Shown piece after piece: positions 26,869 to 62,607 of a stretch of DNA of 64,000 nt (positions within the stretch are counted from its first letter, which is position 1; every line of letters begins with the position of its first letter). The stretch is from Desulfosporosinus sp. FKB (GTDB lineage Bacteria; Bacillota; Desulfitobacteriia; Desulfitobacteriales; Desulfitobacteriaceae): the NCBI RefSeq assembly GCF_002196705.1, contig NZ_NADJ01000039.1:245631-309630 (forward strand). The letters run 5' to 3'. The notes under the pieces are model-generated. The model saw only the letters and a list, made by a program, of their open reading frames with translations, was not told the origin of the DNA and did not search any database. The translations under genes and the position numbers were made by a program.

Positions 26869-29800
26869 CTATTTGAGATCGTCGAAATCTATTTCCTCTT
26901 CTTCGAGGACTTCTTCATTCAGATCTTCAAGAGGGTCTTCTTCATCCACAGTTTCTTCTACATCCTCATCTTCGGTTTCTACGAGACGAGGGCCTGGAGC
27001 CGGAAGCTCCTCATGCAGATCGATACCAAGTTCTTTAGCAGTTTCCGCGATATCCTCATCCGTATCATGGATCTCAATTTCCTGATCATCTGAGGAGAGC
27101 ACTCGAACATCCAATCCCAAACTCTGCATCTCTTTAATCAATACTTTAAAGGACTCAGGAATTCCCGGTTCGGGGATATTTTCTCCTTTAACAATAGCTT
27201 CGTAGGTCTTAACGCGGCCGACAACATCGTCAGATTTAACGGTCAGGATTTCTTGGAGAGTATAAGATGCTCCATAGGCTTCCAGAGCCCAAACCTCCAT
27301 TTCTCCAAATCGCTGTCCGCCGAATTGCGCTTTCCCTCCCAAGGGTTGTTGCGTTACCAGGGAATACGGACCTGTCGAACGGGCATGGATCTTATCATCA
27401 ACCAAATGGTGCAGCTTCAGTACATACATATAGCCTACAGTAATCTTACTGTCAAAAGGTACTCCCGTACGTCCGTCGTACAACATCGTCTTGCCGTCTT
27501 TGGGAAGCCCGGCCTTTTCCAAGGTTTCAAAAATATCCTCTTCTCGTGCACCATCAAAAACCGGAGTAGCAATGCGAATACCCAGAGCTTTGGCCGCCCA
27601 GCCTAAGTGGGTTTCCAAAACCTGACCGATATTCATCCGCGAAGGAACACCCAGAGGATTCAATACAACCTCGATCGGCGTGCCATCCGGCATGAAGGGC
27701 ATATCCTCCTGACGCATAATCCGGGAAATAACCCCTTTGTTTCCATGCCGGCCTGCCACCTTGTCCCCAACAGAGATTTTACGTTTCTGAGCAATATAGA
27801 CACGTACCAGCTGGTTAACGCCCGGTGACAATTCGTCTCCGTTTTCGCGGGTAAAGACCTTGACATCAACAATTTTTCCGGCCTCACCATGAGGAACCCG
27901 TAAAGAAGTATCCCGAACCTCGCGGGCCTTTTCGCCGAAAATAGCACGCAGCAAGCGTTCTTCAGCTGTCAGTTCCGTTTCTCCCTTGGGAGTAACTTTA
28001 CCGACTAAAATGTCTCCAGGACGAACTTCCGCACCAATGCGAATGATTCCACGTTCATCGAGATCCTTCAGAACATCTTCTCCGACGTTAGGAATATCCC
28101 GAGTAATTTCTTCAGGCCCCAGCTTCGTATCCCGTGCATCGGATTCATATTCTTCAATATGAATTGACGTATAATAATCTTCTCGGACAAGCTTTTCATT
28201 AATCAGAATAGCGTCCTCATAGTTATACCCTTCCCAAGTCATGAAGGCCACTAAGACATTTCGTCCCAGAGCAAGTTCACCATAGTCGGTGGAGGGTCCG
28301 TCAGCAACGATCTGACTCGCCTCAACTTTCTCGCCCTTCTTGACGATCGGCCTCTGGTTAATACATGTTCCTTGGTTCGAGCGCAGGTACTTAAGCAGTT
28401 TATGCCGTTCCGTAGTGCCATCGTCATGAAGGACTACGATCTCATCCGCTGTTGCCCGTTCGACAACCCCAGCTTGTTTGGTGATCGCACAAACCCCTGA
28501 GTCTTTAGCAGTCTTATATTCCATCCCTGTTCCCACATAAGGAGAGTCTGTGCGCAAGAGGGGAACAGCTTGACGCTGCATGTTTGAGCCCATTAGAGCA
28601 CGGTTAGCATCATCATGCTCTAAAAATGGAATCAAAGCGGTAGCAATTGAAACCATTTGCTTCGGAGATACATCCATGTAGTCCACTTGGCTCGGTGAAA
28701 CATGCACGAAATCCGGACCGTGCCGCCCGTCAATTTTATCTAAGAGGAAATTGCCACTTTCATCAAGAGGCGCATTGGCCTGAGCGACAACGTACTTTTC
28801 TTCCTCATCTGCCGTTAAATAGTGAATCTCATCGAGAACTCTGCCGTTTTCTTTATCTACCTTACGATATGGAGCCTCTATAAAACCGTAAGGATTAATG
28901 CGGGCAAAGGTACTTAAGGAACCGATTAAGCCAATATTCGGACCTTCAGGGGTTTCTACAGGACACATCCGCCCATAATGGGAGTGATGAACGTCACGAA
29001 CTTCAAAGCCAGCCCGTTCACGGCTTAAGCCACCCGGTCCCAAAGCACTTAAACGCCTTTTATGAGTTAACTCAGCTAAGGGATTCGTTTGATCCATGAA
29101 CTGTGACAATTGGCTGCTGCCGAAGAATTCCTTAATCGCCGCCACAACAGGACGGATATTTATTAAAACTTGTGGAGTTATGACTTCGACGTCCTGAATA
29201 GTCATTCGTTCACGGACAACACGCTCCATTCGCGATAAACCAATACGAAATTGATTTTGGAGCAGTTCTCCTACCGAACGCAAGCGGCGATTTCCTAAGT
29301 GGTCGATGTCATCCTTAAATCCATCGCCTTCCATCAGGTCTAACATTCGTTGTATACTCGCCACGATATCCCCACGGGTCAGATGACGAACCTCCATGGG
29401 AATGTCTTGACCCAGCTTCTTATTAAGCTTGTAACGGCCAACCTTTGCCAGGTCGTAACGCTTAGCATCAAAAAATAATGCTTCTAACAGCGAGCGGGCA
29501 CTGTCGACAGTTGGAGGTTCTCCTGGCCGTAATCGTTTATAGATTTCAACGAGAGCTTCTTCGGTAGATTCCGAATTGTCTCTTTCCAGGGTAGCACGAA
29601 TATATTCGTTATCATTGAACAACTCCAGAATTTGTCCATTGCTGGAATATCCCAAAGCACGGATGAGTACCGTGCCCGGAAGCTTACGTGTACGGTCAAC
29701 CCTTACAAAAATATTATCATTAATATCCGATTCAAATTCCAACCACGCTCCACGGTTTGGAATCACCGTAGCCCCATAAAGTTTCTTACCACTCGGATCA

Positions 29801-31649: not shown

Positions 31650-31842
31650 TCTGTGTACCTCCTTCCTATAGGGCAACTCAGCAAAAAACCTCCGCAGCTG
31701 CAGAGGTTAAGAATGCCAAGTATATCTATCGGCACGTTTTCCAACCTCGGCAGGAAATTAAGCTCAACGGCACCTGCTATCTACAGCGGATATTTAATTC
31801 CTGATAAGTGTACCCTCATTGTAGAATACTGTCAAGAGAACT
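31650..31842 (-). promoter_or_regulatory. L10 leader with attenuator (rplJL)
   Basis: The space between rplA and rplJ holds no gene. On the minus strand it contains a terminator-like hairpin at 31687-31708 (AACCTC...GAGGTT arms around GCAG/CTGC) followed by a run of six Ts at 31683-31688, just before the rplJ binding site. This is the position and form of the Firmicutes L10 leader, which lets L10-L12 adjust its own synthesis. I did not match the kink-turn base by base. Confidence 0.7.
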
Positions 31843-35171: not shown

Positions 35172-35326
35172 GGCGAAGTTTTGGTTGTTCTGTCGCATGG
35201 GCGTCATTTGAGTCCTGATATTCAATGTCCGAAGTTCAATATTGAGTGAAAGCGACTCTTTTAGAAGTATCATAACCAGTGACGTCCAATCTTTCAAGTC
35301 TAATTTTTATCCAATCGTACTTTCTT

Positions 35327-35388
35327 CGATGGGGGGCTCCGGCCCCCCACTGAAGTTTCGATGTTCAGCTTTAGCTGAACAATTTCAC
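35327..35388 (-). repeat. Short copy of the GTGA-flanked hairpin repeat
   Basis: On the minus strand it starts at GTGA (35385-35388), then has the 18-base GTTCAGC/GCTGAAC hairpin and ATCGAAACTTCA, as in the long copies (ATCGGGGCTTC). It ends in a different GC hairpin (GGGGGGC CGGA GCCCCCC). It lies 21 bp after rlmB. The rest of 35172-35326 shows nothing I can name. Confidence 0.7.
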
Positions 35389-39415: not shown

Positions 39416-39655
39416 AAAAAAGCGGAATCTCCGTCCAGAGACGAAAGGTTCCGCGGTTCCACTCTGATTGAACGACCCAAGTCATTCCAGCTCAAAACTT
39501 TAACGCAGTTAACACGGAAAGGCATACTTTAATTCTGCCCTTCAGCTCAGAGATGCACTTCCAAAAATTCCTGCCGATGGCTTACACCAATCCCATCTTC
39601 GCTAAGGGCAATTCCTTTTTGTACTCTTTCTCATCATAGCCTTAATTATTAATTA
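39416..39655 (-). promoter_or_regulatory. T-box leader, tRNA-Cys responsive (cysE-cysS)
   Basis: The minus strand holds the T-box motif AGTGGAACCGCG (39453-39464), then a terminator hairpin (GCGGAATCTCC...GGTTCCGC, 39422-39454) and a T-run. Upstream is a stem I with GATGGGATTGGTGTAAGCCATC and a specifier region GAAGTGCATCTC in which TGC followed by A is the likely Cys codon. Uncharged tRNA-Cys should pair here and let cysE-cysS be read. Confidence 0.92.
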
Positions 39656-51115: not shown

Positions 51116-51275
51116 TGCTAAGACTCCTTTGTATATTCTTTGGAGGGTATGGGCTTAACATCGTAATTATTGCTGGTATATACCTGCAGGATATTTAATA
51201 TCTTAACCCTCTAAGCAAACTAATTCAACGGCTGGTTGACAATAATTGCAAAAGCCTCTTACAAGCCATAAAACA

Positions 51276-51444
51276 GTGAACTCGTTCAGCTAAAGCTGAA
51301 CATCGGGGCTTCAGATACAATAATGTCCAGTGGACATTATTGCCGAGCCGCCTTTCCCAATAGGAATACTTAGCGGCGAAGGAGGACTCTACCCCACCTG
51401 AAGTTAACGAAGGACCCACCCCCACTTATAGAAGCGGGGGTCTC
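51276..51444 (+). repeat. Full copy of the GTGA-flanked structured repeat
   Basis: In plus orientation it begins GTGA then ACTCG, a GTTCAGC/GCTGAAC hairpin (51284-51301), ATCGGGGCTTC, a 10-bp hairpin AATAATGTCC/GGACATTATT (51319-51341), a GCCGC/GCGGC stem with an inner TTCC/GGAA (51347-51377), GAAGGAGGACTCTAC, and a final CCCCC/GGGGG hairpin (51419-51440). The copy at 60388 has the same plan with compensating changes. It has no ORF. Bases 51116-51275 before it show nothing else I can name. Confidence 0.8.
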
Positions 51445-51493
51445 AAAAACCGAATGAAGCCCGTTCTTCGCATCGCAAAAAACGGGCTTCATT
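51445..51493 (-). terminator. Terminator after acs
   Basis: AATGAAGCCCGTT and its exact complement form a 13-bp stem (51453-51493) with a 15-base loop, followed on the minus strand by CGG and TTTTT. It lies 38 bp after the acs stop. Confidence 0.75.
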
Positions 51494-60345: not shown

Positions 60346-60385
60346 ATGGAAATCCCTTATTCGCAAAGGATTTCCATTTTTGTTT
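60346..60385 (+). terminator. Terminator after the alcohol dehydrogenase gene
   Basis: ATGGAAATCC and GGATTTCCAT form a perfect 10-bp stem with a 12-base loop, followed by TTTTTGTTTT. Confidence 0.8.
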
Positions 60386-60387
60386 TG

Positions 60388-60555
60388 ATCCCACTTCTTC
60401 TAGTGGGAGTGGTTCCCATACCTTGCTTCGGTGAACGTAGAGTCCATCCTTCAGCGCGATAGCATTTGTTATGGGCTAGGCGCTTTCGGCAAAGTGTCCA
60501 CAGGACACTTTCGTCATCGAAGCCCCGCTGTTCAGCTTTAGCTGAACGAGTTCAC
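60388..60555 (-). repeat. Full copy of the structured repeat, abutting the ferredoxin stop codon
   Basis: On the minus strand it starts at GTGA (60552-60555), whose TGA is the stop codon of the ferredoxin gene. It then has ACTCG, the GTTCAGC/GCTGAAC hairpin, GCGGGGCTTC, a 9-bp AAAGTGTCC/GGACACTTT hairpin (60491-60511), an AGCGC/GCGCT stem with inner TAGC/GCTA (60453-60484), GAAGGATGGACTCTAC, and a final CCCAC/GTGGG hairpin (60390-60407). It has no ORF. Confidence 0.8.
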
Positions 60556-60737
60556 TCGCTTACTTGAAAAGCTCCCATCGGACAATATTTCACACATTTT
60601 TTACACCTGATACATTTATCCTGATCGATCTTTGGAGCATTAAAACCAATTTGTTCAATCGCCCCCACTGGACAGACCCTTATTGAAGGACAAGGATGAT
60701 TTTGAGGACATCTATCTTTGTTAATGGACACATTCAT
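60552..60737 (-). CDS. Small ferredoxin-like 4Fe-4S protein
   Basis: A probable electron carrier. The 61-residue product has one canonical cluster motif, CIRCKKCVKYCP, and a first half with CPQNHPCPSIRVCPVGAI, whose first cysteines are spaced unlike CxxCxxC, so the first cluster may be altered. The ATG at 60735-60737 follows GGAAGGTG. A promoter with a GGTAT-type dyad lies upstream and a structured repeat begins at its stop codon. Confidence 0.88.
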   Translation of the reverse strand: MNVSINKDRCPQNHPCPSIRVCPVGAIEQIGFNAPKIDQDKCIRCKKCVKYCPMGAFQVSE

Positions 60738-61556: not shown

Positions 61557-61581
61557 TAGATAGCTCATTTAAATCCTGCCA

Positions 61582-61620
61582 GTGAACTCGGACCCACCCC
61601 CACTTATAGAAGTGGGGGCC
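61582..61620 (+). repeat. Deletion derivative of the structured repeat
   Basis: GTGAACTCG, the 5' end of the full copies, is joined directly to GACCCACCCCCACTTATAGA, their 3' end, with the final hairpin CCCCCAC/GTGGGGG. About 130 bp of the full copy are missing. It lies 25 bp after xpt. Confidence 0.75.
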
Positions 61621-61622
61621 TT

Positions 61623-61679
61623 AAAAACAAAATAGAAAGAGACCGCTCTTAAGTGAGTGGCCTCTTTCTATTTTGTTTT
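61623..61679. terminator. Bidirectional terminator after xpt
   Basis: AAAACAAAATAGAAAGAG and its complement CTCTTTCTATTTTGTTTT form a long stem with a short imperfect top, with As before and Ts after, serving xpt on the plus strand and the gene at 61710 on the minus strand. Confidence 0.8.
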
Positions 61680-62378: not shown

Positions 62379-62559
62379 AACTTCTCCTAACAATTTGGAT
62401 ATATTTACATAATTCAGTAAAAAGACCAGCTTCTTAGGTTAGAAGCAAAGAGTGTTCTTTAGCTGCAGTTTTTATCAAATTTTATGTTGTAATCTATTTC
62501 TAATATGATACCACAATTTGGTTATAGAGTATATATTTTCATGTAGTGTCCGATCGTGA

Positions 62560-62607
62560 GACTCCCACTTCTCGTGGGAGTGGTTCCCATACCTTGCATC
62601 GGTGCGA
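62560..62607 (-). repeat. Truncated copy (3' end) of the structured repeat
   Basis: On the minus strand, CACCGATGCAAGGTATGGGAACC and a CTCCCAC/GTGGGAG hairpin match the last ~48 bp of the copy at 60388 with few changes; the rest is absent. It lies right after the DUF3786 gene. Confidence 0.75.

Follow-up and report, generated by a model that had tools for sequence, protein, structure and literature searches.

Passages of PMC7290912 give insertion without target duplication, subterminal hairpins and a fixed short target as habits of IS200/IS605 elements. For ribosomal RNA genes, an insert of 69 nt in helix IV of the D. dichloroeliminans 5S and further inserts in 5S pseudogenes of Desulfosporosinus are described by Stepanov and Fox (2021, PMC7812874), who suggest a spread with mobile elements; the main text of that paper contains neither "repeat" nor "transpos". 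No paper on the repeat described here or on its nesting was found in our search of earlier literature, which covered few subscription papers.

We analyzed a stretch of 64,000 nucleotides from Desulfosporosinus sp. FKB (the window), in which copies of a dispersed repeat had been noted from the sequence alone at 51276-51444 (+; copy A) and 60388-60555 (-; copy B). The repeat is probably a non-autonomous element of the IS200/IS605 type (PATE/MITE), moved in trans by a Y1 transposase and carrying an independently dispersed, self-nesting module. Both copies were found at these positions and each stands for one subfamily (A or B) of a repeat present in very many copies. A covariance model (R1, built from 24 copies) together with copy searches confirmed the dispersed family at a larger size than first noted. 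With copy A as query, at least 40 places in the window genome matched at 93-100% identity (best 40 candidates scored), two of the 40 spanning just 119 and 88 of its 169 bases; copy B retrieved, besides itself, a set at 77-95% identity among its best 40 candidates. Searching the genome and its relatives with R1 recovered further copies, with matches in all 29 genomes of the genus (Desulfosporosinus by public titles) and 1 to at least 90 matches per genome. R1 gave 35 matches, two of them counted as opposite-strand echoes, in 464 kb made up of the window and 20 stretches (400 kb) of its contig; with one contig taken as typical, the window genome would hold some 350 copies and fragments.

The repeat is about 180 nt long and has two layers, a carrier of about 120 nt and a structured module of 67-70 nt. 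In keeping with the sequence-only reading, no open reading frame of at least 90 aa overlaps copy A or copy B. Searches with Rfam 15 (4227 models) returned no match at the repeat within the window up to E 1, and when five loci with carriers or nested modules were searched, nothing that matched the repeat reached the gathering score. The exact module pattern had 0 matches in viral contigs, and copy A had no match among plasmid or phage records. Among public sequences, the module pattern occurred in at least 120 stretches, and 77 of 80 among the matches listed were titled Desulfosporosinus. The same type of search placed other structured RNAs: a T-box leader (window 39434-39646 (-)) and a ribosomal protein L10 leader (window 31674-31804 (-)), both above the gathering score, and, in a tnpB locus elsewhere in the window genome, a RAGATH-18 RNA (RF03064, 73.3 bits; L036:1363-1426 (-)) that is possibly a TnpB guide RNA.

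Copy A, as a complete element of carrier and module, occupies 51275-51452 (+), its ends being taken from an empty site in genome G001, and is flanked by a predicted lyase gene on one side and an acetyl-CoA-synthetase-like gene on the other. It comprises a subterminal hairpin at the GTGAACT end (51284-51301 (+); right end in transposase orientation), an inserted module of 67 nt (51317-51383 (+)) with stems H1 (51318-51342 (+)) and H2 (51347-51351/51373-51377 (+)), and a subterminal hairpin at the far end (51419-51440 (+); left end in transposase orientation), and it is adjoined by AATGA (51453-51457 (+)) where ATAAA is usual. Carrier and module of copy B span 60378-60556 (-), with the start at 60556 and a degenerate far end placed approximately at 60378; its inserted module measures 69 nt (60446-60514 (-)). 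The window holds three further degenerate copies, namely a short copy at 35305-35388 (-) that has no far-end hairpin and ends in ATAAA, an internally deleted copy at 61581-61629 (+) in which the first 10 nt are fused to the far-end hairpin, and a far-end remnant at 62544-62605 (-), the limits of the latter two being set by eye. A 61-aa ferredoxin-like reading frame with two CxxCxxCxxxC-type motifs (by eye) lies at 60552-60737 (-); its stop codon, TGA, is supplied by the GTGA with which copy B begins, which puts the insertion exactly at the 3' end of the frame.

The module-less carrier of about 119 nt is found in the window genome and in other genomes. Carrier ends are sharp: 53 of 60 copies start with GTGAA, preceded by A in 52 of these 53, and at the far end the pentamer ATAAA stands in 24 of 32 scorable copies, the sequence beyond being random. 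At the site orthologous to copy A, G001 is empty and reads AAAAC/AATGA, versus AAAAC-(AGTGAACTCG...AAACCG)-AATGA in the window; this single case thus shows an insertion that left the target unduplicated, and it places GTGA within the element. Subterminal hairpins are present at both carrier ends, and no transposase gene lies inside. Fold energies compared with 60 dinucleotide shuffles gave z-scores of -5.0 for copy A, -3.8 for copy B and -5.3 for a bare carrier, and across the R1 matches (n = 37) double changes were seen in 22 of 37 pairs, in an alignment fitted to the model. The ends, the hairpins and the empty site without duplication support the link to IS200/IS605 that had been drawn from the sequence alone.

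HEARO RNAs of three loci of the genus (L103, L104, L105) begin GTGAACTACC and continue into a hairpin, and three iscB-tnpA elements from two genomes of the genus (L103, L104, L236) end in hairpin-TTTTACGNCCATNCTT-ATAAA; only the tnpA of L236 is intact, those of L103 and L104 being broken, and in L236 the contig start cuts iscB. In common with the iscB-tnpA elements of the genus, the carrier has GTGAACT, ATAAA and, ahead of its left hairpin, CGTAARA. This likeness amounts to a few short motifs, because profiles of the carrier ends gave no match to the iscB-tnpA elements (nothing in L103 or L104). No autonomous parent turned up: among 51 Y1-bearing loci examined, out of 100 Y1 matches in the genus, none had a TnpA between carrier ends. 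The window genome has just two Y1 proteins, both RAYT-like by our reading. A Y1 transposase probably acts, or acted, on the carrier in trans, by a single-stranded DNA route. Three candidate parents were rejected: in L172 an IS608-like tnpA-tnpB element adjoins a carrier but has other ends (TTAC-like left, TCAA right), L249 has carrier pieces flanking an IS608-like remnant, and L198 holds a fragment of a carrier end.

Carriers occur both filled and empty. An A-type bare carrier in the window genome (L133:11634-11752), from which the module of copy A is absent, reads CTTCAGAT-GG-GGACTCTACC, versus CTTCAGAT-(67 nt)-GGACTCTACC in copy A, and L144:13690-13808 is a bare B-type carrier of the same genome with which copy B can be compared. 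Modules also stand inverted in the other carrier arm (L172, L241, L079), fill both arms at once (in G038, as many near-identical copies) and lie within other, unrelated repeats (L095, L158, L267, L268). Of 121 distinct carriers, 51 had a forward module, 26 an inverted one and 12 both, 15 were bare and 17 unclassified, by a rough regular expression that misses some forward modules; a rough classifier that misfiles some placed 98 of 202 distinct modules in carriers and 50 in other modules, with 54 lying elsewhere. These filled and empty versions probably arose through insertion and not through loss. Model R2 was derived from 14 modules, all of the CCGAA type. Under strict filters it had matches in 45 of the 82 genomes searched from the class; within the family these were 41 of 45, elsewhere in the order 4 of 28, and elsewhere in the class 0 of 9. 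Modules adjoin 5S-like sequence, as judged by eye, in L164, L255, L256, L263 and L270, the intact 5S gene of L164 being assigned by Rfam. In that locus (L164:14954-15760, genome G028), an intact 5S gene stands downstream of a 23S gene, and beyond it lie 5S-like fragments that modules and further hairpins interrupt. Another hairpin unit, CCACACTGCAGGAGT...GCAGTGTGG, was repeatedly seen beside modules (L158, L164, L165, L317) and may itself be dispersed as an element.

In carriers and in other modules alike, the module occupies a site of the form (A/G)GT^GG, where it replaces two to four bases. The carrier site CGGT^GGGG shares its core with a site in the H1 loop of the module, and the presence of the same kind of site in the module's own H1 loop accounts for modules nesting within modules. 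At 40 distinct loci modules were nested, their H1 5' arms stacked two to four deep with the junction TCC(A/G)GT-(G)ACGAWAG; this frequency is not representative, since the loci were mostly picked by a module pattern. A script found at least one matching outer 3' arm in 32 of the 40 stacks and a full series in 30; the other 8 had no outer 3' arm. One context was found both ways, un-nested in L164 (TCCAGT/GGAC/AGTATCG) versus nested in L270 (TCCGGT/GACGAAAG...GTAGGATG/AGTATCG). Fold energies of three nested loci gave z-scores of -7.7, -2.6 and -1.8 against 60 dinucleotide shuffles, two of them little better than shuffles.

The module combines an 11-bp hairpin, H1, whose loop is NGT, with a CC/GG clamp and with H2, a stem of 5 bp that encloses a conserved, asymmetric loop; its linkers are CCGA or CCGAA. 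A first alignment was made from 28 regular-expression matches minus two, a false one (window 29330-29412) and a long one in L080. Paired changes in the stems, which the sequence-only reading had seen between copies A and B, recur on the larger scale: of the 18 pairs, 13 showed double changes across 144 module matches, 133 of them distinct. Double-change cells numbered 181 compared with 55 ± 4.9 in shuffles, and 92.7% of cells paired compared with 83.1% in shuffles; 0 of 500 shuffles reached either value (alignment fitted to the model, kinship uncorrected). The internal stems of that reading do covary, but they belong to a distinct module, which is found in other places too. In the loop, 107 of 111 rows retained the G and 110 of 111 the T, and other unpaired bases are equally conserved. 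G-U pairs outnumbered A-C mismatches (28 versus 11, kinship uncorrected), which favors the strand shown as the folded one. At H1 columns 9 and 41 of alignment A5, a G-G mismatch was commoner than any standard pair (78 of 116 rows).

The repeat had been proposed to be an orphan OMEGA (IscB/HEARO) guide RNA; the copies would then be transcribed, take their guide from the DNA upstream of GTGA and serve an IscB in trans. ATAAA is a target motif used by some IscB, and the proposal draws on the GTGAACT start of the repeat, the ATAAA on its far side, the ATAAA-ending iscB-tnpA elements of the genus and a strong RNA-like covariation. The likeness of the GTGA end to HEARO/IscB holds for the shared GTGAACT start, but GTGA itself belongs to the element and is missing from the empty site. 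Model RF02033 (HEARO), searched up to E 10, found nothing in the window genome; in a positive comparison, 8 of 10 IscB loci of the family passed its gathering score. This absence is not proof, because the model misses about a third of cases, matching just 65% of HEARO nuclease 5' UTRs in one study as given in part of PMC9755519. The IscB model NF040563 had 0 matches in the window genome and exceeded its cut-off in 6 of 45 family genomes; the PF14239 model was uninformative, matching none of the control genomes. Against ten IscB loci and their HEARO RNAs, R1 matched only a separate carrier copy in L105, and R2 gave nothing better than E 0.3. A carrier end joined to a HEARO core (GTGAACT paired with a downstream AGTTCAC, the pairing that HEARO RNAs of the genus have) was found in 0 of 82 genomes, by a strict pattern that had no positive control. 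The covarying core, moreover, is found in unrelated contexts too. With no HEARO match, no IscB in the genome and no link to TnpB, an orphan OMEGA RNA is unsupported and highly unlikely. Reading the opposite strand as a TnpB guide RNA (reRNA) or its remnant would suit the general IS200/IS605 end architecture, yet the repeat was present at 0 of 8 TnpB loci examined, out of nine TnpB matches in the window genome, and L172, the single IS608-like tnpA-tnpB element read over its whole length, ends differently; we regard this origin as extremely unlikely.

For the module, the bare and filled carriers could also be related the other way round, the module being an ancient part of one structured RNA that bare carriers lost, and internally deleted copies do exist. 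Loss hardly fits modules that stand in unrelated repeats, in both carrier arms in mirror orientation and inside other modules, which makes this history improbable. We give a similarly low probability to the module being a REP-like element moved by RAYT transposases: it is small, abundant and palindromic, GWAG adjoins H2, and RAYT-like genes are present in the genus, but no module was found within 1.5 kb of nine RAYT-like loci examined, genome G011 has 31 modules and no Y1 match, and the two-stem build of H1 and H2, with its conserved asymmetric loop, differs from the single tagged palindrome described in sections of PMC3733652. Template switching that corrects palindromes could be the source of part of the covariation, yet it would hardly explain the conserved asymmetric loop and the single entry sequence. 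Insertion of the module may also have occurred at the RNA level.

Under the preferred reading, a non-autonomous IS200/IS605-type carrier hosting a mobile module, a Y1 transposase supplied in trans would recognize the two subterminal hairpins of the carrier, which would be, or would formerly have been, excised and inserted as a single strand beside TTTAT (ATAAA on the strand shown). The module would enter (A/G)GT^GG sites of carriers and offer a like site in its own H1 loop, in which the next module would come to sit. Tentatively, we regard the module as a minimal mobile element: a gene-less structured RNA or single-stranded DNA of about 67 nt that may enter (A/G)GT^GG, nest in itself and colonize element hairpins and 5S-like sequence, with its fold kept by compensatory change across the family. 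If so, a structure of less than 70 nt that recreates its own target can drive dispersal and nesting, and IS605-type mini-elements, palindromic repeats and rRNA-gene inserts, so far noted apart, would be united. The exact entry site and the conserved unpaired bases make a search for the mover directly testable.

Among known systems, the carrier resembles the PATE/MITE derivatives of IS200/IS605 treated in part of PMC7290912 in consisting of ends only, with hairpins, no duplication, a fixed target and no gene; it differs from them in its hundreds of copies, in an extra central hairpin that hosts the module and in having a parent that was not found. HEARO RNA (RF02033) is alike in its GTGAACT start with a hairpin and in the ATAAA at the far end of the iscB-tnpA elements of the genus, whereas the repeat has no match to that model, a different core and a genome without IscB. 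The nearest general kind to the module is the REP superfamilies, going by sections of PMC3733652: the REP/REPIN elements of the GTAG and CGTC superfamilies are likewise small, abundant, gene-less and palindromic, and some lie within longer palindromes, whereas the module has two stems and an asymmetric conserved loop, nests in its own hairpin loop and showed no RAYT link. The 5S expansion segments of Peptococcaceae, as reported in part of PMC7812874, include an insert of 69 nt, near the module in size, and modules adjoin 5S-like sequence; these 5S inserts may be the same as the module.
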